Shown here piece after piece: positions 7,037 through 57,193 of a DNA stretch of 64,000 nt. The notes under the pieces are model-generated. The model was not told where the DNA came from. It did not search any database and saw nothing but the letters and a program-made list of their open reading frames with translations. The position numbers were made by a program, and so were the translations under genes. The DNA is taken from positions 62,001-126,000 of IMG/VR virus record IMGVR_UViG_3300050821_016647; one strand, written 5' to 3'. Source of the stretch: a virus. How positions within the stretch are numbered: the stretch's first letter is position 1; the number at the start of each line of letters is the position of its first letter.

Positions 7037-8589
7037 GAGTTTCTCCTCGCCCAGTTCGCGAAGTCCTCGTCCGTATCGAAAGTGGTGTGCAGCTCACTCT
7101 CGACAGACTGCTTCCAACGAGCTCGGTCTGCCTCTTTGTTAGTAATGCGACGTTTCCACTGCTCATCGTTGGCGAGCGCTTCCTTGGCGGCCTGTCCCCA
7201 ACTCCATGGGGGCCACTCCTCGAATTCCTCTTTGTATTTCATACTCGCGTACGTCGGCTTGAAGCCCTTCATCCGCGCTTCCTCGACCTTGCGATCGAAG
7301 AATGCCTTGCGCGGATCCGTAAACACGCGCTCCTCGAGCTGTGCGTTCTCGTCTTGTACGATCTTGCGCGGCTCCGGCACTGGCGGTGCGAATCCGCACG
7401 CCTCGCACGGGTAGTGCTTGATGTACGCTAGACACTTGATGCACTGGGTCGGCTTGCGCTCGTTCACGCGCTCGGCTCGGCCTTCCAGTGACCATCGACG
7501 GTCCTCATGCGGGAAGCCGTGGCGGTCGAGGTTCCCTCCCTGGTCGATGATGATAGGGACGACGCTCGGTCCGTCCTCCGGACGCCAGGAGCGCGTGGCC
7601 GGCGTGTTCTCGTTCCAAGGGCGCAGCCCTCGCCCGGCTTGCTGCATGAACACCACGAGCGACTTCGTCGGCCGCGCAATGATCAGGCACTTCACGCTCG
7701 GTTGGTCCCAACCCTCGGTGAAGATCTGGCAGTTGGTCACAACTTCGAGCTCACCCGAGTCGAGTCTGGCCGAGATGGCGAGCCGATCGTCTTCGGGCGT
7801 GTCCGCATCGACGTGAGCCGCCCTCACGCCGGCCGCCAGGAACTTCTCGAGCAGAGCCTTGGAGTGCGCGACGTTCACGGCGAAGACAACCGTGCGTCGG
7901 CCTTGCGCGTGCTTTTTGTACTCGGCCACCGTATCGCCGAGCACGTCGATCTCCATCATCGCGTCCGCCAGCTCGTCGATGACGAAGTCGCCATGCTGGA
8001 CCTTGATGCCGTCGAGTTTGGGTTGGACCGGGGTACCGAAGCACCGCGGCTCGACGATGAACTTGTCCTCGATGAGATCCTTGTACGTCGCGGCGACCTC
8101 AATGGCTTGGAAGACGTCGCCGAGCGCTTTACCGTCGAGGCGACACGGCGTGGCGGTGAGTCCGATGATCCTCGCGTTTGGGTAGAGCTCGAGGAGCTTG
8201 CGGTAGCTGTTAGCGACCGCCCGATGACACTCGTCGACGAAGATGATGTCGGCCGGTGGCTTGTCTCGGCGACCCAGGCTTTGAATGGTCGCCACCTGCA
8301 CGGGCATCAGGGCGTTCGTTCGTTTGTCATCGGCCCGAATGACGCCGACCTCGGTCACGCCCCACTTCGCTAGCTGTCGCACCGCCTGATCGATGAGCTC
8401 GATTCGGTGCGCGACGAACAAAATCTTCGCATCGAAGTTCGCTCGGGCGAGCTGAATGATGTAGCTCGCCAGAACCGTCTTCCCGCCTCCGGTCGGGCAG
8501 CAGAGAATGACGCGAATGCGCTCCGCGAGAATATGCCCGCGGAGCGCGTCGACGCCTGCTGCCTGATAGAGACGGAGCTCGGGAAGCAT
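7033..8589 (-). CDS. SF2 DEAD/DEAH-box helicase
   Basis: 518 residues. Classical superfamily 2 motifs are visible: Walker A PTGGGKT (32-38), DECH box (119-122), TAT (145-147), TEGWD (291-295) and motif VI QQAGRGLR (316-323). A Cys cluster (CIKC...CEACG) near residue 385 forms a small zinc ribbon, as in many phage helicases of this type. It probably unwinds or remodels DNA or R-loops during phage replication or recombination. It heads a block with a DUF669-like protein, a Sak4-like ATPase and a nuclease, the usual phage recombination neighbourhood. Confidence 0.9.
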   Translation of the reverse strand: MLPELRLYQAAGVDALRGHILAERIRVILCCPTGGGKTVLASYIIQLARANFDAKILFVAHRIELIDQAVRQLAKWGVTEVGVIRADDKRTNALMPVQVATIQSLGRRDKPPADIIFVDECHRAVANSYRKLLELYPNARIIGLTATPCRLDGKALGDVFQAIEVAATYKDLIEDKFIVEPRCFGTPVQPKLDGIKVQHGDFVIDELADAMMEIDVLGDTVAEYKKHAQGRRTVVFAVNVAHSKALLEKFLAAGVRAAHVDADTPEDDRLAISARLDSGELEVVTNCQIFTEGWDQPSVKCLIIARPTKSLVVFMQQAGRGLRPWNENTPATRSWRPEDGPSVVPIIIDQGGNLDRHGFPHEDRRWSLEGRAERVNERKPTQCIKCLAYIKHYPCEACGFAPPVPEPRKIVQDENAQLEERVFTDPRKAFFDRKVEEARMKGFKPTYASMKYKEEFEEWPPWSWGQAAKEALANDEQWKRRITNKEADRARWKQSVESELHTTFDTDEDFANWARRNS

Positions 8590-8604
8590 GTTCGACCCGA
8601 GGGC

Positions 8605-9183
8605 CTAGAACATCGCCTTCTTGTTGGGCTCCGTCGCTGCGGTTGGCGCTGCCGGAGGCTGCGCGTTCGCGCCGAAGTCGAAGTTGTTCGCTGCCGGCTT
8701 CGAACCGTTCTCCTTCGCGGCCTTTGCGCGGGCCTCTGCGACGAGCTTGGTCTGATCGAGAATGAGTCCTCGCAACCCCGCGAACGCCTCCTGCTTCTCG
8801 GCGGGGTCCAGTGGCGTAAACGATGTTCGGCTGCGCGACGGATCGTTGACCCATCGGACCTTGGGGGTCAGGTATTTCTTCTCTGTCGGAAGACCAGGGT
8901 CTTTGATGTACTCCTCGGTCTCGATGACGATTTGGACGATGTCCTTGCTGATCGTTTTCGGATCCGTACCGTCGTAGCCGCAGAACACGAGACTCTCCGC
9001 GGTGCGCTCGCGCGTATTTTCCCCCAACCATCCAGTCCAATCGATAAGCGCTCCCTTGTAGGGTCCCTCATCGACAATCGAGAACGTGACCGTAACTCCC
9101 TTGTTCCCGGTGTTATCGGACTTGACTCCCTCCATGTTGATGCCTCGAGCCATATACGAACCGTCTACGATTTTCGCCGCCAT
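8605..9183 (-). CDS. DUF669-like protein, putative single-stranded-DNA-binding protein
   Basis: 192 residues. A beta-rich N-terminal domain (VTVTFSIVDEGPYKGALIDWTG) is followed by a helical part and a flexible Pro/Ala-rich tail ending KKAMF. Phage proteins with this layout, next to a helicase and Sak4, are usually DUF669-type ssDNA-binding proteins. The position between helicase and Sak4-like ATPase supports this; the sequence itself is not diagnostic. The start follows GGAGAG. Confidence 0.5.
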   Translation of the reverse strand: MAAKIVDGSYMARGINMEGVKSDNTGNKGVTVTFSIVDEGPYKGALIDWTGWLGENTRERTAESLVFCGYDGTDPKTISKDIVQIVIETEEYIKDPGLPTEKKYLTPKVRWVNDPSRSRTSFTPLDPAEKQEAFAGLRGLILDQTKLVAEARAKAAKENGSKPAANNFDFGANAQPPAAPTAATEPNKKAMF

Positions 9184-32811: not shown

Positions 32812-33041
32812 TTGACCCTTCTCAGCTTTGGCGGCGACTTGGGCGTGACGATGCGGCGCCGTGGTTTCCCCTCGACCGTCCTCGCGTGAAGCATCAGGAG
32901 CTTCGCCGCCGCGTCGATGCCTTTGACGACTTCCTCGAGCCTCGTCTGCTCGTCGACCGAGACATCGTTCCAGTAGTCTTCGTGCTGGATCGACCGGGCG
33001 ATGCGGAGGAGCGCGACGGCTTTTTCGCTGAGGGAGGTCAT
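32808..33041 (-). CDS. Helical hypothetical protein
   Basis: 77 residues with a helical N-terminus and a basic C-terminal tail (KPRRRIVTPKSPPKLRRVK). Coupled to the nucleotidyltransferase gene upstream by ATGA. Function unknown. Confidence 0.7.
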   Translation of the reverse strand: MTSLSEKAVALLRIARSIQHEDYWNDVSVDEQTRLEEVVKGIDAAAKLLMLHARTVEGKPRRRIVTPKSPPKLRRVK

Positions 33042-33562
33042 TCCGCGTCATCCGCGCGGCCCACGAGTATGTCGAATTTTTCGAGCAGGTCGGGAGCGAC
33101 TTCTTCTAGGTACTTACGAACCATTTTGTCATCGAGTCCCTTCTTCAGGAGTTGAACGACGTCTTCCTGGTCTTTTCGACGCCACGCTTTCAGCTTCAAA
33201 TAGACGAGGGCACCGGGATCGACGATGGGGATACCCTCGGACTCGTAAGGCTCTTCCACTTGCTCTTCGACGACCTCGTCTGCCATGACATCGACGACGA
33301 CGCCGTTGACGAGGATGGGCATGCCGGGCTTGAAGGTTACAATTCCCCCACCGTGTCGTTCGAACCCCTCTTCACCAACAAGAAAGTCAGCATCCTTGGT
33401 GGCGCGGGGATAGCCGTAGGCACCGACCGCTAACGCTCCGATGAGGGCATGACGTATTCCTAACCTATCGAGCTCTTTTGATGCTCGGGCGGTCGCGTCG
33501 AGAATGCGGTCGGAGACAACGCCGTTGAGAAGTTTGAAGTCCGGCAGATGAACGCGTTTCAT
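33038..33562 (-). CDS. AbiEii/MNT-type nucleotidyltransferase-fold protein
   Basis: 174 residues from ATG at 33562. RLGIRHALIGALAVGAYGYP then TKDADFLV is the hG-x-hAhx...D-x-D nucleotidyltransferase core. A later acidic strand (VDVMAD) supplies the third carboxylate, and the C-terminal helical part (LVYLKLKAWRRKDQEDV) matches that family. Such enzymes serve as toxins or antitoxins (AbiE, MNT). A ribbon-helix-helix gene directly upstream suggests a two-gene module. Confidence 0.75.
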   Translation of the reverse strand: MKRVHLPDFKLLNGVVSDRILDATARASKELDRLGIRHALIGALAVGAYGYPRATKDADFLVGEEGFERHGGGIVTFKPGMPILVNGVVVDVMADEVVEEQVEEPYESEGIPIVDPGALVYLKLKAWRRKDQEDVVQLLKKGLDDKMVRKYLEEVAPDLLEKFDILVGRADDAE

Positions 33563-33582
33563 GTTTTTCTCCCGTGAACCCG

Positions 33583-33756
33583 TCAGTAGCGACCCTCTGC
33601 CTCCTGTCGAATCCATTTGCGCAGCATTCCGCTTGCGGTCAGGCCGTTGGCCTTAGCGGCCTTGAGGAGCCATTCCTTCTCGGTCTTCGAGAGCGTGAGG
33701 TGGATGTGTTCCGGTCTGTACGTGAGGTCCACGACATCCGGGCGCTGTTTCTTCAT
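33583..33756 (-). CDS. Ribbon-helix-helix protein, candidate antitoxin/repressor
   Basis: 57 residues (ATG 33756, TGA 33585-33583). HIHLTLSKTEKEWLLKAAKA then TASGMLRKWIRQEAEG is a ribbon-helix-helix motif. It ends 21 bases before the nucleotidyltransferase gene. It probably autoregulates the pair and faces the tandem RHH gene on the other strand across a 100-base divergent region. Confidence 0.65.
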   Translation of the reverse strand: MKKQRPDVVDLTYRPEHIHLTLSKTEKEWLLKAAKANGLTASGMLRKWIRQEAEGRY

Positions 33757-34984: not shown

Positions 34985-35107
34985 CTAGTCCGTCACGATC
35001 AACCAGACCACGAAGCAGATCATCACCGCGCCAAAGACGAGCATCGCAATGGCCCAGCGGGGATTCTCGCGAGCCCACCTTTCTGTCCATTCACGCGGTG
35101 GATGCAT
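34985..35107 (-). CDS. Tiny single-pass membrane protein (variant of the NP-TM family)
   Basis: 40 residues: basic N-terminus with RENPRW, then one membrane helix (AIAMLVFGAVMICFVVWLIV), then three residues. The Asn-Pro followed by a helix recalls the larger family upstream, but the tail is missing. Overlaps the next gene by 17 bases. Last gene of the 41.5-to-35 kb operon. Confidence 0.55.
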   Translation of the reverse strand: MHPPREWTERWARENPRWAIAMLVFGAVMICFVVWLIVTD

Positions 35108-35321
35108 TCGGCGTGCTCTGGTAGATGAGGTAGCCGCCTAGTGCAATTGCGAGGACGCTGCCGGCGAGAAGTGGAAGATCCGAGCCGATGGGGTTCGACC
35201 TTGACCGCCCCGCTTTTCGGTACGCGATGGCCACGGCTTGGGATTGTTTGTAGCCCTCATGGCGCAGCGTGCGAATGTTCTGAGAAATTACGACATCAGA
35301 GCTACCGCGTTGGAGGGGCAT
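35091..35321 (-). CDS. NP-TM family membrane protein with phage QAVAIA motif
   Basis: 76 residues. SQNIRTLRHEGYKQSQAVAI followed by AYRKAGRSR is a short helical motif common in phage proteins. Then SNPIG and one membrane helix ending GGYLIYQS, the signature of the local family. Short tail. Confidence 0.7.
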   Translation of the reverse strand: MPLQRGSSDVVISQNIRTLRHEGYKQSQAVAIAYRKAGRSRSNPIGSDLPLLAGSVLAIALGGYLIYQSTPNASTA

Positions 35322-35414
35322 CTACTTCGATCTCCCACTGAAATGAATCGCTGCAATGACCATGACCGCGACGACGGCCGCCAGGCCGAGTTTGATGAGT
35401 AGGTCGTTGGTCAC
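35322..35414 (-). CDS. Tiny membrane protein
   Basis: 30 residues from a GTG overlapping the previous stop (GTGA). Almost all one hydrophobic helix (LAAVVAVMVIAAI), ending GRSK. Too short for family assignment; supported by coupling. Confidence 0.45.
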   Translation of the reverse strand: MTNDLLIKLGLAAVVAVMVIAAIHFSGRSK

Positions 35415-35698
35415 GGCTTCGGATCTCGAGGAATCGGTTCTTGCTCGCGCCTCATGCGCGATTCGTAGTTCGCGGCGTCGTATCCAGCGGCCACGTACTG
35501 CTCAAGCGTCGGAAGAAGGTAGTCCCCGTGATCGGGGTGGCACTTCTTCCCGGACTTGCCCATCTGCGGGTGCGTCCATACGCCGTTGATGAGCGCCGAT
35601 CCGCAACTCGAACACCACGACGTGATCTTGGTCGTAGCACCCGTGGCTCCGTCGGTCTTTGGCGTGGCCGTCGGATGCTTGCAGCGATCGAGGCTCAC
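35411..35698 (-). CDS. Zinc-binding hypothetical protein
   Basis: 95 residues from GTG at 35698 overlapping the upstream stop. CKHPTATP, then WCSSCGSALI, then KCHPDHGD give several Cys/His ligands. Contains LEQYVAAGYDAANYESRMRR. A soluble member of an otherwise membrane-protein operon. Function unknown. Confidence 0.65.
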   Translation of the reverse strand: MSLDRCKHPTATPKTDGATGATTKITSWCSSCGSALINGVWTHPQMGKSGKKCHPDHGDYLLPTLEQYVAAGYDAANYESRMRREQEPIPRDPKP

Positions 35699-36105
35699 TG
35701 AAGCGTCGGGCTGACCTGCGGCACGGGCGTCGACGCTGCGGTCGCTTGGTAGACCGCCTGCGTCGGTGTCGAAGCGGGCTGCTGTCCCGCGGGCGTGGTT
35801 TGGTCGGGATTGACCGACATGATACCGAGCTCGGGCAGACCCGGGCCGGTGCATTGCGGACCCGTACTGAGGTTCTGGTTGACGGTCGCGGCTGCCCAGA
35901 CGCCCGCGATGATGCTCGAGGCGAGCCCCGCGGCGGCCGTGATCGCGAATTCCTTGCGATACTCGTCGGATGCGACGGCGCCGATGATGCCGACGAGCAT
36001 CGCGAGGCTTCCTCCTCCGGCGAGGACCATCTGGGGCACGGTCTGCGTCTCGTCGACGTACGTGCACGTGGGCATCACTTGACCGAGACCGCGACGACGA
36101 GCCAT
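35695..36105 (-). CDS. Two-pass membrane protein with Pro/Thr/Gln tail
   Basis: 136 residues. Two hydrophobic helices (27-46 and 54-75) with a short charged loop (SDEYRKEF), then a Thr/Pro/Gln/Ser-rich tail of 60 residues with Cys14 and Cys85. The tail composition matches the NP-TM proteins around it, although the Asn-Pro motif lies after the helices (SVNPDQT). Function unknown. Confidence 0.7.
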   Translation of the reverse strand: MARRRGLGQVMPTCTYVDETQTVPQMVLAGGGSLAMLVGIIGAVASDEYRKEFAITAAAGLASSIIAGVWAAATVNQNLSTGPQCTGPGLPELGIMSVNPDQTTPAGQQPASTPTQAVYQATAASTPVPQVSPTLQ

Positions 36106-36127
36106 GGTGATTTCTCCTGCGCTTAGG

Positions 36128-36355
36128 TTAGCGCCTTTTGAGTAAAAAGAGTGCTGTGAGTCCTCCCGCCAAGATTAGCGGAATTCCTGCGAGATAATTT
36201 TGCTCTTGATACAAGAGCCCCGCGCCGAGTCCCACCGCGGCGGCGCTCCCGGCCAACATGAGCTCCTCTTCCTCGCTCTGATGCTGCGAGTAACCGTACG
36301 CCGCACCAGCAGCACCGAGTGCGGCAGCAGGGATGAGCGTGGCGGGGGCCGTCAT
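36128..36355 (-). CDS. Three-helix membrane protein
   Basis: 75 residues with three short hydrophobic segments rich in Gly/Ala and an acidic loop (HQSEEEEL), ending LLKRR. Gly/Ala packing suggests oligomerisation. No holin family recognised, though size and layout would allow it. Confidence 0.65.
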   Translation of the reverse strand: MTAPATLIPAAALGAAGAAYGYSQHQSEEEELMLAGSAAAVGLGAGLLYQEQNYLAGIPLILAGGLTALFLLKRR

Positions 36356-36359
36356 GGGT

Positions 36360-36710
36360 TCATCCTACCGCGGAGGGCCCGAGCGGGGTAGTGCTGCCGC
36401 CAGAGCCTAGTTCGTAGGACTGATCGTTCGACGCCGTGGGTCCCGGAGGAAGCCACGGAGCGAGCGGGTTCGCCCCACTGAAAACCGAAGGATTGGGGAT
36501 GGTCGTCGGCGCGTTCGGCGGAGGGGCGTAGCCCATGACCTCTTTGGTCGCGGCAGCCTGTGCGGCGGCGCTCGTGGCGGTCTGGTACTGCTGGTAGATG
36601 AGGTACGCGACCGTGCCCACCGCGACGACGCCCAGCGTGATCAAGACCGCGTCCTCGATGGGGGCGGCCTCGGCCATCTGGAGGGCGCCGGTAGGGTTAC
36701 GGCGGCGCAT
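36360..36710 (-). CDS. NP-TM family membrane protein
   Basis: 116 residues: MRRRNPTG start, helix DAVLITLGVVAVGTVAYLIY, then QQYQ and an Ala/Pro/Asn/Ser/Gly-rich tail of 70 residues. Positive N-terminus before the helix predicts an outside tail. Overlaps the next gene by one base. Confidence 0.75.
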   Translation of the reverse strand: MRRRNPTGALQMAEAAPIEDAVLITLGVVAVGTVAYLIYQQYQTATSAAAQAAATKEVMGYAPPPNAPTTIPNPSVFSGANPLAPWLPPGPTASNDQSYELGSGGSTTPLGPSAVG

Positions 36711-37012
36711 TACGCCCCCGGATTGTAGATCGCCGCAGGACCGAGTGCGCCCGGCGTCTGGTTTGAGAACACGCCGATGCCGCTCGGGGCAACGTACGAG
36801 TACGTAGCGTTACCGCTCGAGTCGACGCCTGTCTGGAGCTGAGAAGGCTCGGCGTTCGCTTCGGCAGCAGCGGCCTGAGACTTCGTGTAGAGCCAAATTC
36901 CAAGCCCACCTACGACTACGCCGATACCGATGAGGATGAGACCATCGGTGTAGGTCGTGACGGGGCCGGCGACGGGATTGCGACGTGAGCGACGACGTCT
37001 CGGGTTGATCAT
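36710..37012 (-). CDS. NP-TM family membrane protein
   Basis: 100 residues from ATG at 37012 (TAATG overlap). MINPRRRRSRRNPVAG, then helix LILIGIGVVVGGLGIWLYTKSQ and a Ser/Asn/Gly/Tyr-rich tail. Same architecture as its neighbours; the GIWLY element aligns with GYLIY. Confidence 0.75.
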   Translation of the reverse strand: MINPRRRRSRRNPVAGPVTTYTDGLILIGIGVVVGGLGIWLYTKSQAAAAEANAEPSQLQTGVDSSGNATYSYVAPSGIGVFSNQTPGALGPAAIYNPGA

Positions 37013-37365
37013 TATAGCTGGTTCCACCAATTGGCGGCCGACTGAGCTGCGGTGACCGCAGGAGATTGAGCCTGCGTTTGAACCGTCTGATTTGCGTTGT
37101 AGATCTGGTCGCTCACGTTTTGAGCTGCCTGGGACGCAGCGGCGATTTGATTCGCGACGTCGCCCGCCGAACCTGACGCACCCGAGATGACGTCGTTGGT
37201 CTCGGCAAGTGTATTTTGCGCCTGACCGAGCTGGTAAATCGCATAGACGATGGCGCCGAGCAGCGCGGTCCCCATGCCGAGCATTAGGATCGTGTTCGTA
37301 TTCAATCCGGTGTCCTGCGGATTTGGACGTAGGTAGTGACGGCGACGCGAAGGATGGCGCCTCAT
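37012..37365 (-). CDS. NP-TM family membrane protein with Gln/Ala/Asn tail
   Basis: 117 residues from ATG at 37365 (ATGA overlap). Basic start with RPNPQD, helix ILMLGMGTALLGAIVYAIYQ, then a long Gln/Ala/Asn/Ser-rich helical tail ending WWNQL. Function unknown. Confidence 0.75.
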   Translation of the reverse strand: MRRHPSRRRHYLRPNPQDTGLNTNTILMLGMGTALLGAIVYAIYQLGQAQNTLAETNDVISGASGSAGDVANQIAAASQAAQNVSDQIYNANQTVQTQAQSPAVTAAQSAANWWNQL

Positions 37366-37610
37366 GACCCCCACCTGTTTCCAACCCAGATGGCCGCGAC
37401 GAGACCTCCAACACCAACGAGTCCTCCTGCGATCATCTCTGCATCCCCCGCGTCCGGATCGAGCGCCATGCCGAGTCCGACACCGGCCGCAGTAAGTCCG
37501 CCGATCTGGGCAATCTTGCGCGTGTCGCTCCCGGCGGAAAGGATCGCTGCCCCGATGCCGAGGACGGCACCGAGAGATCCGAGTTCGAGAGGAAAGCCAA
37601 GGTTCGCCAT
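37362..37610 (-). CDS. Gly-rich multi-pass membrane protein
   Basis: 82 residues with about three Gly/Ala-rich hydrophobic segments separated by short charged turns (GSDTRK, DPDAGD). No Asn-Pro motif. Similar in size and composition to 36128-36355. Confidence 0.65.
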   Translation of the reverse strand: MANLGFPLELGSLGAVLGIGAAILSAGSDTRKIAQIGGLTAAGVGLGMALDPDAGDAEMIAGGLVGVGGLVAAIWVGNRWGS

Positions 37611-37847
37611 TTAGGTACCTGTGGTCGCCTGTCCGAACGTACCGGCTTGGTACGCTTGCAGGTCAGCGACTTGCTGCGCGCTCTTGCCTGCGTTGTAGAG
37701 AAGGTAGCCGAAGACGCTCGCGGCGACGACCCCTCCGACGCCGAGGTAGATCGCCTGCTCGGTCGTAAAAGTCGTGAGCGGGTTTTCGCTCGAGCAGCTG
37801 TCGCAGCAGCGCGCTCCGTTTCGTCTCATCAAGGCTCGTCGTCGCAT
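37611..37847 (-). CDS. NP-TM family membrane protein with Cys-rich start
   Basis: 78 residues. MRRRALMRRNGARCCDSCSS, then ENPLTT, then helix YLGVGGVVAASVFGYLLYNAG and a short Gln/Thr tail. The CCDSC cluster near the N-terminus is unusual in the family and could bind metal or be acylated. Confidence 0.7.
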   Translation of the reverse strand: MRRRALMRRNGARCCDSCSSENPLTTFTTEQAIYLGVGGVVAASVFGYLLYNAGKSAQQVADLQAYQAGTFGQATTGT

Positions 37848-37849
37848 GG

Positions 37850-38263
37850 TCAGCTCCCTTGGGTCCCGGACGGTTGGTTGGCAGGCAGCGGCACGTTCGA
37901 GCCACCCGGTCCGAGCTGCGTGCCTTGGTAGGTCGAGGTCATGGCTGGCGTCGTCTGCTGCGAGCGCCAGATCAGATACCCGACGAGACCGATGACCGCG
38001 GCGCCGCCGACGACGATGCAGGTGTTGCGGAGGTGCTCTTCGTCGGTGGAGGGGTTGCGTTTTCCTGCATCACCGTCTTCGCCCTCTACGTACGACTTTG
38101 CGAGTGCGAGCGTTGAGTGATAGGGCCCGATGCGACGAAGGTGTTGACCGGTCCCGTAGAGAACGACGTAGCCTTTTGGCCATTTCAGGATCTCATACTC
38201 GCGCGAACCGCTTGTTGCGTGCCACACCGTCACACCATCTTGCTGACGAGTTGACCAGTTCAT
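37850..38263 (-). CDS. NP-TM family protein with N-terminal soluble domain
   Basis: 137 residues. A 65-residue alpha/beta domain (EYEILKWPKGYVVLYGTG, then YHSTLALAKSYV) is followed by KRNPST, a membrane helix ending GLVGYLIWRSQQ, and a tail with GPGGSNVPLPAN. Two other genes (38811, 39861) have the same domain order. Confidence 0.75.
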   Translation of the reverse strand: MNWSTRQQDGVTVWHATSGSREYEILKWPKGYVVLYGTGQHLRRIGPYHSTLALAKSYVEGEDGDAGKRNPSTDEEHLRNTCIVVGGAAVIGLVGYLIWRSQQTTPAMTSTYQGTQLGPGGSNVPLPANQPSGTQGS

Positions 38264-38535
38264 GCGACCCGCCCTTCGCTCTCGGCGGTAATTCGAATTC
38301 GATCGGAGACGCTCGCCTCTGGGTCTTCGTCGTACTGCTCGACGGCGTAGTCGCCGCCATAGTGCCGAGCTCCGGCACGGCTGTAGATGAGCACGTCGAT
38401 GTAGACGGGGCTCTTGCCGGACATGCCCATCGAGACCGCGAAGCCGGCCGCTTCGTCAGGCGTCCTAAAGATGCGCTCCTGTCCAGAGCCGTCTTCGACG
38501 GCGTACTCGACGTCTTTGTGTGCGTGCTTTGCCAC
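38260..38535 (-). CDS. Small soluble domain protein (stand-alone relative of the NP-TM N-terminal domain)
   Basis: 91 residues. VEYAVEDGSGQERIFRTPDE, then AAGFAVSM and a strand YIDVLIYSRAG: the same beta-alpha-beta outline as the soluble N-terminal domains of 37850 and 38811, but with no membrane helix. Its gene lies between those members. The relationship is suggested, not proven. Confidence 0.65.
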   Translation of the reverse strand: MAKHAHKDVEYAVEDGSGQERIFRTPDEAAGFAVSMGMSGKSPVYIDVLIYSRAGARHYGGDYAVEQYDEDPEASVSDRIRITAESEGRVA

Positions 38536-38538
38536 GAC

Positions 38539-38799
38539 TCAGCCTCCCGCGCTGGCTTGGGCCGGTGTGACGGTGCCCGCCTGGATCTGCTGCATGACCC
38601 AGGCGTCGTACGCCTCCTGCGTGGCGTTGCTCGGCGCGGCGGGGGTGCTCGGGCTTGCTGCGGCGGAGCTCACGCTCATCTTCGAGTAGAGCCCGTAGCC
38701 GACCAAGCCGAGGACGGCGAGACCGAGGAAGGCCAAGCCGAGGTCTTCAGAGCCTGTGAGCGGGTTGGGGCGACGAAAACGCTTCAATGAACGACGCAT
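38539..38799 (-). CDS. NP-TM family membrane protein
   Basis: 86 residues: KRFRRPNPLTG, then helix LAFLGLAVLGLVGYGLYSK, then a Ser/Ala/Pro tail and a short helix (AYDAWVMQQIQAG). Function unknown. Confidence 0.75.
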   Translation of the reverse strand: MRRSLKRFRRPNPLTGSEDLGLAFLGLAVLGLVGYGLYSKMSVSSAAASPSTPAAPSNATQEAYDAWVMQQIQAGTVTPAQASAGG

Positions 38800-38810
38800 G
38801 AGTGGCTCCT

Positions 38811-39254
38811 CTATGTACCTGAAACAAATGGCGGGACGGCGTCCTGCGCATCCGCTTGCTGCTGAGGCGTGAGTGAAGCGGCGTTGCCGGTGTTGGCGAC
38901 GGGCCCCGAGGGCGCCAGCGGGTTCGAGCCCGTGACCGCTTTGTAGACGAGGTAGCCGGCGAGTCCGATGAAGCCGACGCCGACTGCGACGAGACCGTAG
39001 TCGAGTAAATCGGCTGGATTCTCTTTCGAGAAGTTCCCATCCGCGTCGAGGAGGTCGACGGTGCCGCGCTCGTTCATGTAGTAGACGTCGGAATAGAATC
39101 CCTCTTTCTCCATGCGCCGTCGCGCGGAGGCGAACGCGGCGTCTCGGGTTCGGTACTTGCCGAGAGACTTGTCCGAGTAGTGCCCGCTGGTGAAGAGCAT
39201 GTACCCGCCGGACCGCGCGTCCGTGATGACGTAGTCGTCTTCTTGAGGTTCCAT
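38811..39254 (-). CDS. NP-TM family protein with N-terminal soluble domain
   Basis: 147 residues. A soluble part with ITDARSGGYMLFTSGHY and KYRTRDAAFASARRR, then KENPADLL, a helix ending LAGYLVYKA, and an Ala/Pro/Gln-rich tail. A second Asn-Pro (SNPLAP) follows the helix. Confidence 0.75.
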   Translation of the reverse strand: MEPQEDDYVITDARSGGYMLFTSGHYSDKSLGKYRTRDAAFASARRRMEKEGFYSDVYYMNERGTVDLLDADGNFSKENPADLLDYGLVAVGVGFIGLAGYLVYKAVTGSNPLAPSGPVANTGNAASLTPQQQADAQDAVPPFVSGT

Positions 39255-39257
39255 GTG

Positions 39258-39854
39258 TCAGCCGCCTGGGGTAGCGAAGTTTCCGCTCGTGTCGACGACG
39301 TATTCGAGAGGAAAGGTGAGAAGCTGAGGTGTTGGGAAGAGAGGCATGCCTGCGTAAGGGGTCACTCGCATCGTCACCGTACCGATTGCTGTAGTTGGAC
39401 CAACGGTACCTAGAGATACGACGGTTCCTGTGACTGCCTGCCCATCGGGCCCAGGCATTCCGGGATGGCTCGCGCTAGTGCCGAAAGACCCGCCCTGAAC
39501 TACTACGTCTACCGAGTCGCCTACGCTCGGGACTTTCGTGTTGCCTTGATTCCACCAATTGTAACCGGCTGGTAAAGCAGGAAGTGGTGGCGTTGGCATA
39601 TAGCCAGCGGGTTCTGTGAGCTCGGATGATAGCGAGATTGCGCCAGGCGGTGCTGTTCCGGGCGAATTGAAGGTATTCACAAGAGGCACGGGAGTCGCCG
39701 CCGACTGCTGCTGTGACTTCCAAATGAAGTACCCGACGATGCCGACAGCCGCCGCACCCGCGGCGACAATGCCAACGGTTTGAGCGGTCGAAAGACCGGT
39801 TGTCGATACCGCGTCTGGATTACGCGCGTATCTGCGTGGGCGTCTCAGTTTCAT
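39258..39854 (-). CDS. NP-TM family protein with large exterior domain
   Basis: 198 residues, the largest tail of the family. ARNPDAVS, helix ending GIVGYFIWKSQQ, then a Pro/Ser linker and a beta-rich C-terminal domain of 90 residues (VPSVGDSVDVVVQGGSFG, then VTGTVVSLGTVG, then LLTFPLEYVV). The beta repeats suggest a folded outside domain. Confidence 0.75.
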   Translation of the reverse strand: MKLRRPRRYARNPDAVSTTGLSTAQTVGIVAAGAAAVGIVGYFIWKSQQQSAATPVPLVNTFNSPGTAPPGAISLSSELTEPAGYMPTPPLPALPAGYNWWNQGNTKVPSVGDSVDVVVQGGSFGTSASHPGMPGPDGQAVTGTVVSLGTVGPTTAIGTVTMRVTPYAGMPLFPTPQLLTFPLEYVVDTSGNFATPGG

Positions 39855-39860
39855 TCTGAC

Positions 39861-40595
39861 CTACGGAGTGGTGCCGCTGATGTTGTCGACGCCTGGTATT
39901 CCGGCTTGTGTTTGAGGTGTTGTGACTTCTCCTTGATACCCGGGTTGGAGGCCGCTACCTCCGCCGAGAGGACCACCGAGATTCGGGTCGTAGACGACTC
40001 CACCCGTTTGAACTCCGTATGACTGATCGACTGATCCGGTCTGCGTTGTTCCCGGCATCGGCGTCTGGACGACGGGCAAGCTCGCGGCCGTCGACGCGCT
40101 CTGCTGCGACTTCCAGATGAGGTAGCCCACGAACCCGAGCGCGGCGACGCCGGCCGCAGCGATGCCGACCTTTTCGCCGGTCGACAGGGAAGAGAGAGGA
40201 TTCGATCGGGACATGTTGGTTTCCTTGGCGCTCTTGGCGCCCGGTTCGTTGAAGATGCCTGAAGACTTCTCGGGGACGTCGTGGTGGCGCTCGTACTCGA
40301 GTTGAAGAAGAGGACGAGCTCCGATTTCAGGAATTTCGTCTACGTTGAGGATGCCATCATCTTCACCGTCGATGAGAACGTCATTTGAGTGAGCTCGAAG
40401 AAAGTGCCCTTCGTTGAGAGCTTTGACCAACGCTCTATTCGAGACGTCCCACTGACCCGATTTGTTTTGTCGGTCAGTGCGAACGCTCACGACGCCGACT
40501 TCACGTCTGTCGTTGACCGTCCATTCTTCCTCGCCACTCCAGACGTCGAGGGACCAGACCCTGTAGACGACGGTGCACTTGTTGGCGAAGCTCAC
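39861..40595 (-). CDS. NP-TM family protein with long N-terminal soluble domain
   Basis: 244 residues. A 120-residue soluble N-terminus (VYRVWSLDVWSGEEEWTV, then WDVSNRALVKAL, then EDDGILNVDEI) precedes SRSNPLSS and a membrane helix ending GFVGYLIWKSQQ, nearly identical to the end of 39258. An internal ATG (at about 40214) could produce the membrane part alone. The tail is Gly/Gln/Thr/Pro-rich. Confidence 0.75.
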   Translation of the reverse strand: MSFANKCTVVYRVWSLDVWSGEEEWTVNDRREVGVVSVRTDRQNKSGQWDVSNRALVKALNEGHFLRAHSNDVLIDGEDDGILNVDEIPEIGARPLLQLEYERHHDVPEKSSGIFNEPGAKSAKETNMSRSNPLSSLSTGEKVGIAAAGVAALGFVGYLIWKSQQSASTAASLPVVQTPMPGTTQTGSVDQSYGVQTGGVVYDPNLGGPLGGGSGLQPGYQGEVTTPQTQAGIPGVDNISGTTP

Positions 40596-40598
40596 GAC

Positions 40599-40925
40599 TC
40601 ACGCCCCGGCGGTCGGGACGAGTGGAGCTGCGGCGCCTGGACCGGCTTCGTAGGAGATGGGGAGCCCGTCTGAGGTCGTGGACGCCGCCGGCAGCGCCAC
40701 GTTCGACCCGCCTGAGCCGAGGATGGTCGAGGCGTTCGCATTGCCTCCGACCGTGGACCCTCCTCCCGCGGCGGCCGTCGTCTGGGACTGCTGGTAGAGG
40801 TAATACCCGATGCCGCCGACGACGGCGACGCCCGCTAGCGCGAGGGCGATCTTGGCGCCGTCGGACATGCTGGCTTTCGGGGAGGGACGCGGGTTGGTGT
40901 AGAAGCGGCGAGCTCGTTTGGCCAT
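40599..40925 (-). CDS. NP-TM family membrane protein
   Basis: 108 residues: ARRFYTNPRPSP, then a helix ending VGGIGYYLYQQSQ, then a Gly/Ala/Ser/Thr tail with GGSNVALPAAS, resembling the GGSNVPLPAN of 37850. The first family member in transcription order. Confidence 0.75.
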   Translation of the reverse strand: MAKRARRFYTNPRPSPKASMSDGAKIALALAGVAVVGGIGYYLYQQSQTTAAAGGGSTVGGNANASTILGSGGSNVALPAASTTSDGLPISYEAGPGAAAPLVPTAGA

Positions 40926-40960: not shown

Positions 40961-41500
40961 CTACCGCGATGCGATAGGTGCCATGTACGGGTGCTTGGAC
41001 CACCAGGAAAAGGCTCGTTCCATGCGTCGGCGGGCTTGAGGTTCTCCCGGTTCACAGTGGCCTACCGTGTAGCCGGTGATGCGGTCGGCCGGCGGGCCGT
41101 ACTGGCACATGCTCCACGAGTCCCGGAGCGCGCGAAGCATCCCACGGAAGCACGAGACGCGGTCGGTGAGGCCCTTGGCGTAGCTGTCATGCAGCTGTCC
41201 AAGGCACCATGCGTGTCCGCCGTCGCCACTCGGCTTGATCTGCTGGTCCACGTCGGCGCGAAACTGCCCAGACTCGTAGCTTGCGATGGCCAGCATGACG
41301 AGCGCGGTCTGAGCTCGACCCACTTCACCTGCGAAGAGTGGGACCTCGTCGGGGTCATTCACCACGGCGGTGAGATCTACCGCGATGCTCTCGTAGCGTG
41401 CTTCTGTCTCGGCTCGAGGCGTCCGGGTGTAGTCGTGGACCGAGGGCGGCGCCCAGAACGTCATGGCGGCGAGCAGGTAAGCGGCGAGTCCGTGAAGCAT
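40961..41500 (-). CDS. Exported lysozyme-like (transglycosylase-type) protein
   Basis: 179 residues. A signal peptide or anchor at the N-terminus (LHGLAAYLLAAMTFWAP) is followed by a helical domain with AIASYESGQF, where the Glu could be the general acid, then GHAWCLGQLH and four Cys in all. The layout resembles lysozyme-fold hydrolases. It is the first gene of the 41.5-to-35 kb operon, so it may open the wall for the membrane proteins. Confidence 0.55.
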   Translation of the reverse strand: MLHGLAAYLLAAMTFWAPPSVHDYTRTPRAETEARYESIAVDLTAVVNDPDEVPLFAGEVGRAQTALVMLAIASYESGQFRADVDQQIKPSGDGGHAWCLGQLHDSYAKGLTDRVSCFRGMLRALRDSWSMCQYGPPADRITGYTVGHCEPGEPQARRRMERAFSWWSKHPYMAPIASR

Positions 41501-42081: not shown

Positions 42082-43422
42082 TCACTTAGGCCAGTGGTTC
42101 TTGAGCCCGAGTGACGCCCACTCCTGAACCTGTTCGAGCGTCACTGGCGGAGACCAGTGATTTCGGATTCCGTCGACGGCCCATAGCTCGGCCTGTCCGA
42201 GTGAAACGGCCGGAGGAGGCGCAGGCGGAGGAGGCGCGGGCGGCGTCGGCAGGGGCGGCGGAGGAATGGGAGGAGTGGGAGCCGGGCCGGTGGTGGGAGG
42301 TGCCGGCGGTGCAACGCTGGAGATGGCGCTGATGAACGCGTCGCCGTTGGGCGAGCCAAGGCCCGTCGCCGGGTCCCATCCTGCCGCTGCGGGGTCGCCG
42401 TTCGAACCCTCGGTGATGTCATTGCAGGCCGTCGCTCGAGCGGTGTAGACGTCCGCTGTGAGGCGTCCGCTGATGGCGCCCTTTGCGACGCCTCGTGCGA
42501 CCGCAACGAGCGCAGCCGTGAAGGGAGATGACGCACTCGTACCGCCGATGACGGTCCACGAGCCGTTGGCGCTCATCTGCCAGCCCGTGTTTGGGTCGGC
42601 GTTGGCGGACGTGTCCGGGACGCCGCGGGCCGAGCCGGGCACGACACCGTTCTGAAACGAGGGCATGGGGACGGTCGGGTCGAATCCGCCGCCTCCGCCT
42701 TCGTCGCCCGCGTTTCCGTCGCCCCAGGCGGCCTCGTCGGAGCGAGCTCCGCTCGAGTCGATGGTCAGATGCGTGCCGCCGACGGCCCAGACGTTTGGAT
42801 CGGAGCACGGGTAATCCGCCGAGGGAGACGAGGTCCCGTCGTCGATGGAGTTGTCGCCCGCCGCCGCGAAGAACGTGACGCCCTTGGCGACTCCGTCGGC
42901 GAACGCCTTGGCGAGAGCCGCGCGGTCCGAAGGGAGCCACTGGTCTGCGGCTGAGCCCCAGGACCAACTGACGACCTGCGCACCGGCTGTGACGAGGTCT
43001 TCAGTCACGAGCGCCATGCCGGTGCCGATGTTGGGACCGAACGTGATTGTGATGTCGGCTGCCTCGCCCGTAAGGAACCACCACGTGAACGCCATTGTAG
43101 GTATGATGTCCAACATGTTTTCCACGTTGGAATCTTGATCGCTCACCGGGTCGTTGACTGCTCCGTCAACCGTTCGCACTGTCAGCTTTGGCGCGACCAT
43201 GCCCCACCGAGCGACCGAAGCGTCGATGTCGGCCTGTACGACGCCACCACCGAGACTGCCGACGCCGAGCTTGACGCTCGGGATGCCGGCAAACTGATTT
43301 TGCTTGAATCCATAGGCAGTTAGGATCTGCGCGGGCGAGAGTGAGCCGGCGGGGAAGCTCGGCGAAGCCGCAGCGAGATGGGTGCCTCGGAGACGGGGGT
43401 GCTGTCGGTGGTAGTGATGCAT
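42082..43422 (-). CDS. S53 (sedolisin/kumamolisin) serine-carboxyl peptidase
   Basis: 446 residues. Catalytic residues are Glu101 and Asp105 (VENMLDI), Asp190 (AAAGDN) and Ser296 in GGTSASSP; the calcium site (ACNDITEG...WDPATGLGSP) is intact. The N-terminus lacks a signal peptide and the ~180-residue prodomain normal for the family. After a Pro-rich linker (371-405) come two copies of a Trp-x5-7-NHW unit (LWAVDGIRNHW and EWASLGLKNHW), possibly a binding repeat. Endopeptidase activity against host envelope or virion proteins is inferred. Confidence 0.85.
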   Translation of the reverse strand: MHHYHRQHPRLRGTHLAAASPSFPAGSLSPAQILTAYGFKQNQFAGIPSVKLGVGSLGGGVVQADIDASVARWGMVAPKLTVRTVDGAVNDPVSDQDSNVENMLDIIPTMAFTWWFLTGEAADITITFGPNIGTGMALVTEDLVTAGAQVVSWSWGSAADQWLPSDRAALAKAFADGVAKGVTFFAAAGDNSIDDGTSSPSADYPCSDPNVWAVGGTHLTIDSSGARSDEAAWGDGNAGDEGGGGGFDPTVPMPSFQNGVVPGSARGVPDTSANADPNTGWQMSANGSWTVIGGTSASSPFTAALVAVARGVAKGAISGRLTADVYTARATACNDITEGSNGDPAAAGWDPATGLGSPNGDAFISAISSVAPPAPPTTGPAPTPPIPPPPLPTPPAPPPPAPPPAVSLGQAELWAVDGIRNHWSPPVTLEQVQEWASLGLKNHWPK

Positions 43423-47856: not shown

Positions 47857-48033
47857 CTACTCACCACTTTTCGACTCCGGCCCTTCACCAACAGACAGTA
47901 GCCGACAGGCTACGTCTGCCGCCTCGCGCGTGGGGCACACGGCGTAGATGCGCCGATAATGGTTAGTCCACTCCAGGTCTCCCCAGACGGCCCACGCATC
48001 GCCCACGTCGCGATGAACGTCGAAGTACCTCAC
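47857..48033 (-). CDS. Hypothetical protein
   Basis: 58 residues from a GTG overlapping the recombinase stop (GTGA). Contains WGDLEWTNHYRRIYAVCPTR. Function unknown; transcribed with the recombinase. Confidence 0.6.
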   Translation of the reverse strand: MRYFDVHRDVGDAWAVWGDLEWTNHYRRIYAVCPTREAADVACRLLSVGEGPESKSGE

Positions 48034-49067
48034 TTCTTCTCCTCCTCGGCCTCGATTCCGTCCGCTGCGTTGTCTTTGAACAGCGTGCCATGCCGGATGT
48101 ACGTCATGGCGACCCGCTGATCCTTGTGCCGCGTCTGCCGCATGATGTTGTGGAGCGTCTTGCCCGCCGCCGCCGCGCTCGTGGCGAAGCCGGCCCGGAG
48201 CGAGTGCCCGGAGAACTTCTCGGGGTCGAGCCCGGTCTGCTCGGCCACGCGCTTGACGAGGTCGGCCACGACGTCGGACCACATGTGCTTCTCGCCGATC
48301 GCGTCGCTCCGAGGGTCGATGCGGCGGTAGAGAGGGCCGTCCTTCAGCTCGGCGCGCTTGATCCACTCCTTCGTCAACAGGACCGCGCACACCTTGGGGT
48401 CCTTCGCGTAGGGGATCGCCACGTCTTCGCCGGCCGCGACCTGGTCCCCCTTCGACCGGCGCACGTGGACCAGCATGCCGCGCTCGACGAACTCCAGATC
48501 CTCGACACGGAGCTGCACGATCTCCGACCGCCGGAACGCCCCCCAGAAACCCAGCGCGAGAATGCTCCGGTCACGGCACGTCACGAGGTCGTCGAAGCGC
48601 CGGTCCCGCATCGAGGCGAGCGCCTTCGTCAGGTCGCCGATCTCCAGGGGCGCAGCTCTGCGTTTCTTCGTCCCGAGCTTCACCCGGATGCCCTTCATCA
48701 CCTTGGCGATGCCGGGGTGTGCCTGAGGCCAGTCTTGGCCACGAGCCCGGAGCGCCTGCACGAGCCTGACGTAGGCACCCTCGATCGTGCCGACCTTGAG
48801 GGGGCGCTGCCTCACCACCTTCTCTCCGCCTCGCGTGACCCACTCGACCCGCACGTTCCCGTCCGCGAGCGCGGCGAGGTACAGCATGACCGTCTCGGGC
48901 GTCGTCGGGCACGAGGCGAGGCTGTACTCGGCGCACCACCGGGCGAATTTGGCGAACTCCCGCTCGTGCTGGCGCCGCGTCTCGTCCGTGATGGTGCTCT
49001 TGCCGTAGCTCGCGGCTGAGGCGACGAGCCCGGCGAGGGTGGGGCGGGTGGCGAGGTCGGCGCTCAT
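48030..49067 (-). CDS. Tyrosine recombinase / integrase
   Basis: 345 residues from ATG at 49067 (ATGA overlap). The catalytic set is complete: Arg179/180 (AFRRSEI), Lys206 (RRSKGD), His288-x-x-Arg291 (GHSLRAGF), His314 (QTRHKD) and Tyr323 (MTYIRHG). An N-terminal SAM-like core-binding domain (residues 1-130) precedes it. It could integrate the element, resolve dimers or invert a segment; no attachment site was identified. It lies in the block of short genes with repeated leaders. Confidence 0.9.
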   Translation of the reverse strand: MSADLATRPTLAGLVASAASYGKSTITDETRRQHEREFAKFARWCAEYSLASCPTTPETVMLYLAALADGNVRVEWVTRGGEKVVRQRPLKVGTIEGAYVRLVQALRARGQDWPQAHPGIAKVMKGIRVKLGTKKRRAAPLEIGDLTKALASMRDRRFDDLVTCRDRSILALGFWGAFRRSEIVQLRVEDLEFVERGMLVHVRRSKGDQVAAGEDVAIPYAKDPKVCAVLLTKEWIKRAELKDGPLYRRIDPRSDAIGEKHMWSDVVADLVKRVAEQTGLDPEKFSGHSLRAGFATSAAAAGKTLHNIMRQTRHKDQRVAMTYIRHGTLFKDNAADGIEAEEEKK

Positions 49068-49405
49068 GTGAACTCTGGCTCGAAGCAGATGCACTTACAC
49101 TCGTCGCAAGCGCCCGTCCGACTGTTCCCGTGCCCCTCAATCGAATGCCCGCACACCTCGCACGCCGGGATCTTGTCAGCCGGATCGCTATTGCGACAAT
49201 CCTTGCAGCCTGGGTGCGCCATTACCTCGGCAAGAATCTGAACGTAGAGAGGGCGCTCCCATCGACCGCGGCGCTGATGGGCGACGGTGTGCCGGACGGA
49301 CCCGCAGCACGAGCACCGTTCGACCACGGTGGCTTGGTGCGCGACTTTCGACACGCACGTCTTTGGGTGCCTACACGTGAGCAACTTCTGGACGGACGCC
49401 TTCAC
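49064..49405 (-). CDS. Cys-rich zinc-binding protein
   Basis: 113 residues from a GTG at 49405 overlapping the upstream stop. At least a dozen Cys in pairs (CSCCGS; CKDC; CEVCGHSIEG; CDECKCIC) indicate several zinc sites, the last ones rubredoxin/ribbon-like. Directly upstream of the recombinase. Function unknown. Confidence 0.7.
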   Translation of the reverse strand: MKASVQKLLTCRHPKTCVSKVAHQATVVERCSCCGSVRHTVAHQRRGRWERPLYVQILAEVMAHPGCKDCRNSDPADKIPACEVCGHSIEGHGNSRTGACDECKCICFEPEFT

Positions 49406-52790: not shown

Positions 52791-52865
52791 GGACCCACCG
52801 GACCGATTCGAACGGCCGACCTCCGGCTCCGCATGCCGACGCTCTACCACTGAGCTACGAGGGTC
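52791..52865 (-). tRNA. tRNA-Arg-like gene, anticodon GCG
   Basis: 75 nt. The D arm (TAGCTCAGTGGTAGAGC), anticodon stem TCGGC/GCCGG with loop ATGCGGA, and T arm GGCCG-TTCGAAT-CGGTC are canonical. The anticodon at 34-36 is GCG (Arg, CGC/CGU). The acceptor stem is unusual: GACCC pairs with GGGTC and TCG with CGG, but one base on the 3' side is unpaired. No CCA is encoded. GCG anticodons for Arg are rare in bacteria, which normally use ACG. Confidence 0.65.
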
Positions 52866-52885
52866 AAAATGAAAAGCAAGATGTC

Positions 52886-52960
52886 GGACCCACCGGACCG
52901 ATTCGAACGGCCGACCTCCGGCTCCGTATGCCGACGCTCTACCGCTGAGCTACGAGGGTC
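52886..52960 (-). tRNA. tRNA-Arg-like gene, anticodon ACG
   Basis: 75 nt, identical to the previous copy except two positions: the D loop and wobble base 34. The loop ATACGGA gives anticodon ACG, the normal bacterial Arg tRNA read after A-to-I editing. It has the same bulged acceptor stem. The two genes are 20 bases apart and probably co-transcribed leftwards. Confidence 0.7.
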
Positions 52961-53370: not shown

Positions 53371-53656
53371 TCTTGTCCTCGACCTCTTCTTCCCCAGCCT
53401 TCTCCCGCGCTCGTCGACAGAACGGGCACGAGTTTTCGTTGCAGACGCCGAACGAGTGCTCGCGTTCGATCGTGAACGCCTTCGAGACCTTGTAGTAGGC
53501 GATGGCGGCCTCGTCGAGCTCCCGCAGGGTCTCTGGGCTTCGGACGCGTCCGCGAGCGATGGCGGCTTCGATCATCAGGTCGAGCTTGGCGGTGACGTCC
53601 GAGCTGACGGCGCGGGCCTGGCCGTTGGCGCGGGGGAGGTTGTGGTCTCTAGGCAT
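53363..53656 (-). CDS. Hypothetical protein with C-terminal Cys cluster
   Basis: 97 residues from ATG at 53656 (TAATG overlap with the nucleotidyltransferase stop). Helical (DLMIEAAIARGRVRSPETLR) with CNENSCPFCRRAR near the end. Function unknown; transcribed with the nucleotidyltransferase pair. Confidence 0.65.
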   Translation of the reverse strand: MPRDHNLPRANGQARAVSSDVTAKLDLMIEAAIARGRVRSPETLRELDEAAIAYYKVSKAFTIEREHSFGVCNENSCPFCRRAREKAGEEEVEDKSA

Positions 53657-54219
53657 TAGAGTCTCCCCCGCGACACCTTCCAACGTACCTCGTCGACGAG
53701 TCGATCAAATTCATCCGCGGCGTACAGACCGAGATACTTGGCGATGATCTTTCGCGTTTTTCTTTCGTTGATCTTCTTGTTGGCGATGAGCCACTGCAAG
53801 TCCAAGTCGTCTTTGCCGCGCCAAGCCGCCATTTTCATGGCGGCGATGTACTCGGCACGAGCTACCGGCATTGCCGCGAGGCGGGTCCTGATAGCTTTTG
53901 AAATCACTTCTTCGTAAAGCGGTGCGTATTCGTCATCCCGAATGACGATGTCGACGGGGGCGCCGTTTGGGGCCTTGGTCTGAAATCCGCCGAACGATAG
54001 CGACTTGCCAACAGGCAATTCCTCGATGGGTTCGTAGGCCGCTACATCTACGTCGCCGGTCAAACGGTCCGATCCGTAGAGTTGCATAGCGTAACCACCG
54101 ATGAGGGCGACCTGGACGCGCTCGTCCTTGGCGAGAATGGCAATCTCGGTCGTCGCCTCCGCGAGTACCGCCGGAGCAAGAAACTTGTGTCTGGTTCGGC
54201 CGGTCATCAGGGACCTCAT
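53656..54219 (-). CDS. AbiEii/MNT-type nucleotidyltransferase-fold protein
   Basis: 187 residues from ATG at 54219, overlapping the stop of the winged-helix gene (ATGA). ERVQVALIGGYAMQLYGSDR then TGDVDVA is the G-G-x-A...D-x-D core; VDIVIRDD supplies the third acidic strand. The C-terminal helical part has KMAAWRGKDDLDLQWL, similar to KLKAWRRKDQEDV of the protein at 33038. Coupling to a DNA-binding gene recalls AbiE-type toxin-antitoxin order. Confidence 0.75.
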   Translation of the reverse strand: MRSLMTGRTRHKFLAPAVLAEATTEIAILAKDERVQVALIGGYAMQLYGSDRLTGDVDVAAYEPIEELPVGKSLSFGGFQTKAPNGAPVDIVIRDDEYAPLYEEVISKAIRTRLAAMPVARAEYIAAMKMAAWRGKDDLDLQWLIANKKINERKTRKIIAKYLGLYAADEFDRLVDEVRWKVSRGRL

Positions 54220-56088: not shown

Positions 56089-56517
56089 ATGGAGATTACA
56101 CTCGAACTCGCAGAGTCGCTCATAGAAAAGTTCCTGCCGTACATCGACATCAACGGGCCCTTGATGCCAGGAATGTCGACGAATTGTCACACGTGGACAG
56201 GAGGCAGCGGAGGAAGATCGGATAGGTACGGGCGCATTCCTGTTGGTCACGTGGACGAGGTGCTCGTTCATAGATTGTCCTGGGTTTTGAACCGCGGACT
56301 GATCCAGGATGGGTTGTTCGTGTTGCACAGGTGCGACAATCCACCGTGTGTCAGGAAGGAGCATTTTGACTGTCGCAGCGAGATGGTCCGACATCAGAGA
56401 ATTGGCGAGGGACGTCGAGTCCAAGATGACGAACTCAGAAGTGGGACCTCCAACGCTTCCAGGCAAAAAATCCTAGAAAGCCTCCAACCAATCCGCCCCA
56501 GACCATCGAAGTCGTAG
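56089..56517 (+). CDS. HNH homing-type endonuclease
   Basis: 142 residues, the only rightward gene between 42 and 64 kb. VHRLSWVLNRG then LHRCDNPPCVRKEHF is the HNH_3 core with His, the second His pair and zinc Cys. Residues after it (RRVQDDELRSGTSN) are less typical. Its last 80 bases overlap the end of the transglycosylase gene on the other strand, so it looks like an inserted selfish gene. Confidence 0.75.
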   Translation: MEITLELAESLIEKFLPYIDINGPLMPGMSTNCHTWTGGSGGRSDRYGRIPVGHVDEVLVHRLSWVLNRGLIQDGLFVLHRCDNPPCVRKEHFDCRSEMVRHQRIGEGRRVQDDELRSGTSNASRQKILESLQPIRPRPSKS

Positions 56518-57193
56518 ACGGAAAGATGCCACCGGCCAGATCGATTTGCGTTTGGATGTAATTCCACAAGTCTGGGTGGTTGTTCTGAGCGTTAGTGATT
56601 GCGGTTTGTAGGTCGCCCAGCGTAATCGAGCCTTTTCCGTCAGGATCAAGACTCGTATTGCTCGAATACCAAGGGTCGCCAGACTGGGAGATGACGAATG
56701 AACTCGACTCACCGGGTTGGAACGTAGCCGGGAGGAAGTTCAATTGGTAAAGTTCGGCACCACTGATAGAGCCGAGTCCGTACTTGGTGAGCCAATTTTG
56801 GAAGTATGCGAACACGTATGGAAGCTGTGCGCTTACCGTAAGCTGAGTGTATTCGTCGACCGTCATGTCTCCGAGGAAGTTCTGACTTCCAGGGCATTGC
56901 TGGTTCAAACCTACGCAGCCGATAGAATTTTGAGCCGATGGGTTGAACCCACTCTCACTGATGAGCAGGCCGGCGACGTCTCCTGGGTCCGCTCCTATTG
57001 CTTGACACCCAGCTACGAAGACGCTCGCCCAGCCGGTGTCGAAGTAGTCCGGTGGCGAGTAGCTCTGCCCGAGGCCCCGTAGGCGACGCCGCGTGGGCCG
57101 GTTGAGAATCGAGACCGGCTGTCGCGTCTTGGCCGGAGACCAGATGCGGCCGGCGGGCGAGGGGTGCGGGGCGTGGAAGTCGTAGAAGTGCAT
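56435..57193 (-). CDS. Membrane-anchored lytic transglycosylase / lysozyme-like protein
   Basis: 252 residues. Basic N-terminal region with Arg-rich patch, then a soluble lysozyme-fold domain: CQAIGADPGDVAGLLISESG with the putative catalytic Glu80, then CVGLNQQCPGSQNF. The last 24 residues form a membrane helix with a basic end (SMVWGGLVGGFLGFFAWKRW). Such C-terminally anchored hydrolases act in virion membranes of internal-membrane phages, or in host envelopes. Third wall hydrolase of the window. Confidence 0.7.
   Translation of the reverse strand: MHFYDFHAPHPSPAGRIWSPAKTRQPVSILNRPTRRRLRGLGQSYSPPDYFDTGWASVFVAGCQAIGADPGDVAGLLISESGFNPSAQNSIGCVGLNQQCPGSQNFLGDMTVDEYTQLTVSAQLPYVFAYFQNWLTKYGLGSISGAELYQLNFLPATFQPGESSSFVISQSGDPWYSSNTSLDPDGKGSITLGDLQTAITNAQNNHPDLWNYIQTQIDLAGGIFPSTTSMVWGGLVGGFLGFFAWKRWRSHF

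Follow-up and report, generated by a model that had tools for sequence, protein, structure and literature searches.

The array and its surroundings

The stretch of DNA analysed here (the window, 64,000 nucleotides) covers positions 62,001-126,000 of the 127,529-bp IMG/VR record IMGVR_UViG_3300050821_016647, a virus sequence from environmental DNA labelled G000; the remainder of the record was examined piecewise, and genes were called by codon usage. The first and last 90 bases of G000 are identical and a related virus, G003 (63 kb), carries a 98-bp terminal direct repeat, so that both genomes are taken to be complete and circular; for G000, to which IMG/VR itself gives no completeness value, this is probably the case. 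The genome lengths of these two related terminal-repeat viruses (127 kb and 63 kb) differ about twofold.

Within the window, eleven minus-strand genes between 35091 and 40925 (Table 1) have in common a module consisting of a basic N-side, an Asn-Pro pair and a Gly/Ala-rich helix ending in GY(L/F)(I/L)(Y/W), referred to here as the NP-helix module. The eleven open reading frames are packed almost head to tail, with gaps of -17 to +35 bp and a single one of 89 bp. The true start of the 36710 frame lies at a TAATG junction, and that of the 37012 frame is probably at 37365, in an ATGA overlap. A promoter scan found no promoters, and terminator-like sites occur near chance level. The first-pass annotation had described consecutive or near-consecutive genes, probably co-transcribed with a lysozyme-like protein; the tight packing agrees with the former, with the qualification that other genes, some coding for helices and some not, stand between the members (38260, 37362, 36128 and 35695). 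The lysozyme-like reading of the upstream neighbour was not confirmed: this gene lies on the same strand 35 bp upstream and matches neither Pfam nor PHROG.

Table 1. Genes of the array and neighbouring or related genes (window coordinates).
Position	Strand	Feature	Remarks
56435..57193	-	lytic-transglycosylase-like protein	C-terminal helix and basic end; relatives in G001 (E 1e-103) and G002 (E 1e-91)
40961..41500	-	upstream neighbour of array	hydrophobic N-terminus
40599..40925	-	NP-helix member	tail motif LGSGGSNVALP
39861..40595	-	NP-helix member	N-side domain of ~125 aa without PHROG/Pfam match
39258..39854	-	NP-helix member	long tail
38811..39254	-	NP-helix member	N-side domain of ~80 aa; C-terminal PPFVSGT
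38539..38799	-	NP-helix member	relatives in G001 and G003
38260..38535	-	small non-member within operon	no predicted helix
37850..38263	-	NP-helix member	N-side domain of ~70 aa; tail LGPGGSNVPLP
37611..37847	-	NP-helix member	relatives in G002 and G003
37362..37610	-	Gly-rich non-member	two predicted helices; G003 relative (E 6e-19)
37012..37365	-	NP-helix member	tail coiled-coil-like and rich in Ala/Gln; also conserved in G001-G003
36710..37012	-	NP-helix member	true start is the ATG at 37012
36360..36710	-	NP-helix member	tail ELGSGGSTTPLG
36128..36355	-	hydrophobic Gly-rich protein	no Asn-Pro, weak match to the profile; relatives in G001-G003
35695..36105	-	protein with two predicted helices	N-terminal RGLGQ motif; relatives in G001 and G002 (E 1e-18)
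35091..35321	-	NP-helix member	N-side domain matches phrog_2423 (E 1e-15)
34985..35107	-	variant	rich in Arg, with ENP immediately preceding the helix; no significant profile score (E 0.59)

Elsewhere in the window, a subtilase-family peptidase gene with a Pro-rich C-terminal part lies close to the array (42082-43422), and two tRNA-Arg genes are found at 52791-52959. Judged by eye, there are two tyrosine recombinase-like genes (window 48030-49094 and L002:13202-14164) and two related-looking nucleotidyltransferase-like genes (window 33038-33616 and 53656-54219).

A family of NP-helix proteins

A profile built from the helix segments of the eleven array members returns these seeds at E 1.6e-18 to 1.6e-11 and, in addition, recovers unseeded members elsewhere in G000 at E 1e-13 to 1e-3. 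Because the latter were found independently by the profile, the likeness extends beyond that of generic hydrophobic helices; the relative G009 gives no match at E<=0.01, though 18 of its 135 predicted genes have one predicted helix. The earlier description of an array of paralogues thus stands for all eleven minus-strand genes that it named. Its count of about twelve in one array has to be amended, since the variant at 34985 does not score significantly and since the family falls into three groups on the record (at 18.4-22.4 kb, ~48 kb and 97-103 kb), of which the array is one, with some 21 members in all, ten of them beyond the eleven array genes.

With a profile of 21 members, 26 matches at E<=1 are obtained in G000, 21 of which are the seeds with Asn-Pro. 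Of the 51 matches in four genomes, 37 have an Asn-Pro pair at most 30 residues ahead of the helix, compared with 4.5 expected by shuffling (21 of these were alignment seeds). The public profile collections PHROG and Pfam do not cover the module, the N-side domain of the 35091 member giving the only clear PHROG match among window members, and a search of GenBank phages with one member (L003:1061-1393) returned nothing at E<=1.

The virus group

A 413-aa protein (L004:4087-5328) is our candidate for the capsid protein of the group; its relatives occur at 33 IMG/VR loci in a conserved neighbourhood. It has no match in GenBank phages, nor, with a relative's sequence as query, in plasmids. Two NP-helix members lie inside this capsid-type cluster (L004:7978-8379 and 8393-8692), adjoining a transglutaminase-like protein, and other one-helix proteins of the cluster give weak profile matches. 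The transglutaminase-like protein was found in 30 loci examined, and its sole match among 50,697 phage records is gp34 of SSIP-1 (E 3e-5; profile E 5e-11), which is annotated as structural.

The isolated phage SSIP-1 has no tail, an internal membrane and two capsid protein types, and was reported to show almost no sequence overlap with GenBank (PMC6356626). Besides the homology of gp34, it resembles the present group in having circular dsDNA, which the terminal repeats of G000 and G003 match, and in that several of its proteins, including the lysozyme-like gp54, have C-terminal hydrophobic segments. Unlike G000 (127.5 kb), it measures only 43.8 kb, it shows no match to the NP-helix family and none of the capsid candidates has a sequence match in it, so that the transglutaminase-like protein is the only link. 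In 13 records, no match was found to terminase PF03237 or to HK97-type capsid PF05065, which would set the group apart from tailed phages (Caudoviricetes), nor to the FtsK_SpoIIIE ATPase (searched as PF01580), which would distinguish it from the PRD1-adenovirus lineage with its FtsK/HerA-type packaging ATPase. A terminase check with phrog_2 matched only the DEAD helicase frame of G000, weakly, and one frame of G001.

Structure prediction for the capsid candidate improved with alignment depth (AlphaFold mean pLDDT 29 from 5 sequences, 61 from 28), and a fold search with the latter model gave weak jelly-roll-like matches only. The best TM-score among the fold matches listed belongs to I1ZBH9 (211 aa), which by its length might be an SSIP-1 protein and which was not used as evidence. 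A PDB profile search yielded matches at E ~1 only, and a contig search gave one false match, L012. By one crude measure, a fraction of 0.226 of the genes encodes a predicted helix, as against 0.143 in the tailed phage Mx8 and 0.109 in SSIP-1, a difference that is only moderate and does not strongly separate tailed from membrane phages. Literature searches found no papers on this virus lineage.

Several other features of the capsid-type cluster were recorded. The motif G(L/M/V/F)G, with Q, A or R as a frequent next residue, occurs 37 times in its proteins (L004:969-15310 and relatives) against 10.2 +/- 3.4 expected, and the capsid candidate has it close to its N-terminus; it may be a processing or binding site. 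An intein-like insertion occurs in the transglutaminase-like protein of L008:4949-7513 (Hint profile match, E 6e-4) and, by eye, a similar insert in that of L037:6214-7845, and homing-endonuclease-like genes with repeats, likewise identified by eye, stand between capsid-cluster genes (L004:2300-3295, L026:11902-12990).

Distribution and conservation of the family

The 21-member profile finds 13, 14 and 17 matches in G001, G002 and G003, one in G004, none in G005 and 0-2 weak matches in each of 21 more distant records. A wider profile adds modules in G004-G006 and gives no match in SSIP-1 or Mx8. The family is accordingly expanded in four viruses (13-26 matches each) and thin in three others, and the module is absent from most distant relatives as well as from most relatives sharing the capsid candidate. 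Judged from this distribution, the large expansion belongs to one clade, and the module, missing as it is from most relatives with the capsid candidate, does not form a virion component common to the whole group.

Among the four rich genomes, G000-G003, the gene order of array 2 is kept, and gene order and several tails persist between viruses at ~35-65% identity. Nineteen tail pairs exceed the threshold of z>5, 17 of them between genomes and two within one genome; in each of the four, a member ends in PPFVSGT or PPFVPG(T/F). Sequence differences are most frequent at third codon positions, a pattern that shows constraint. It had been proposed that strongly varying tails reflect repeated duplication with diversification of the exterior part. 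For some members no counterpart was found (39258 is an example), but several groups keep their tails from one virus to another, and for these groups rapid exterior diversification is unsupported, given the conserved order and tails and the codon-position constraint. The members look like old, separately maintained paralogues that are stable rather than fast-changing.

Orientation of the module

Of 51 matches, 39 carry a greater net charge before the helix than after it. Other C-terminal-helix proteins show the opposite in 21 of 26 cases, in a set that spans other open reading frames of these records beyond the capsid-cluster genes. In G006, the module sits C-terminal to winged-helix DNA-binding domains; a separate gene of this genome has it ahead of an M15 peptidoglycan peptidase. 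Charge asymmetry and the fusions, with DNA-binding domains on the N-side and a peptidoglycan peptidase on the C-side, are consistent with a cytoplasmic N-side and a C-side exposed outside. The charge asymmetry concerns topology in the cell and says nothing on which side faces the capsid.

Adjoining the capsid candidate is an Arg/Lys-rich protein (40-55% in its N-half) with LSNPLSGGE before a hydrophobic stretch in G000, G001 and G004 and LSNPLSGEE in G002. It has the layout in common with the family, but its helix segment gives no significant match to the profile. One orthologous group in G000-G003 (L004:10224-10757, L007:4776, L008:4543, L009:5138) has the mirror order of helix, linker, Asn-Pro and Arg-rich C-terminus.

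Interpretation

Our best explanation, held with moderate confidence, is that the array encodes paralogous single-pass membrane modules which link membrane, capsid and genome as minor virion (or assembly-site) proteins, in a group of SSIP-1-related viruses that are tailless, have circular dsDNA and probably contain an internal membrane. Minor proteins of an internal-membrane virion were among the roles first suggested for the array, and this option is favoured because the group resembles SSIP-1, has no detected terminase or HK97 capsid, carries two members in the capsid-type cluster and has the arrays in common with its relatives. Virion location, DNA binding and capsid binding of the NP-helix proteins are inferred. 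During assembly, the basic Asn-Pro side would be on the cytoplasmic, DNA-bearing side with the tail across the membrane, and the proteins would gather in a patch destined to become the virion membrane, where basic or DNA-binding N-sides might anchor the genome (or a capsid layer) and gene-specific tails might bind partners. In known membrane phages, capsid and genome are brought into register by membrane proteins. The array would then supply many capsid/membrane adaptors, by analogy with P3 and P6 of PM2 (Corticoviridae), transmembrane proteins of a circular-DNA phage that were proposed to register capsomers on the membrane and are thought to template its capsid (PMC6356626). This likeness is one of analogy with no homology claimed, PM2 having two membrane proteins and not a large paralogous family.

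It is unlikely that the proteins act solely at the assembly site, marking or shaping a membrane patch or holding viral DNA at the membrane during replication, and are left out of the particle. Basic or DNA-binding N-side domains would suit such a role, as would the three separate gene groups, two of them distant from the capsid cluster, yet two members lie within that cluster and its other one-helix proteins match the profile weakly. An equally improbable function is a lysis or entry set of spanin-like proteins and peptidoglycan-hydrolase anchors that opens the host envelope. The N-terminal helix and coiled-coil-like tail of the 37012 protein resemble Rz-like i-spanins, the module of G006 carries an M15 peptidase and the transglycosylase-like protein with its C-terminal helix is conserved in relatives. 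However, the Rz-like PHROG matches are weak (E 0.009 and above, the best for this one member), most NP-helix members have no coiled-coil tail, the window members tested lack a Pfam enzyme domain and some twenty paralogues far exceed the needs of lysis. Virion-borne hydrolases would moreover suit the virion reading equally; PRD1 (Tectiviridae), which unlike the present viruses has a linear genome, combines an internal membrane with the virion-associated muramidase P15 (PMC6356626). Less likely still, in view of the kept gene order and tails and the codon-position constraint, is a role in superinfection exclusion, in remodelling of the host envelope or as receptor decoys with diversified exteriors, for which small membrane proteins with low-complexity tails would be suitable.

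Within the reading as virion membrane proteins, a more speculative and rather doubtful possibility is that Asn-Pro plus a basic stretch constitutes a sorting code of the lineage, directing diverse proteins (DNA-binding proteins, a hydrolase, tail peptides) to a common virion membrane in a fixed orientation; that it may work from either end is suggested by the mirror-order orthologous group. If this were true, the membrane coat of a tailless lineage would be assembled from about twenty paralogous adaptor proteins.

The array is tied to an apparently undescribed virus lineage (records of 55-127 kb) related to SSIP-1. If its products are virion-borne, they would provide a ready-made series of orthologues and paralogues acting as membrane adaptors, whose comparison could reveal the rules matching membrane to capsid and allow them to be tested gene by gene.
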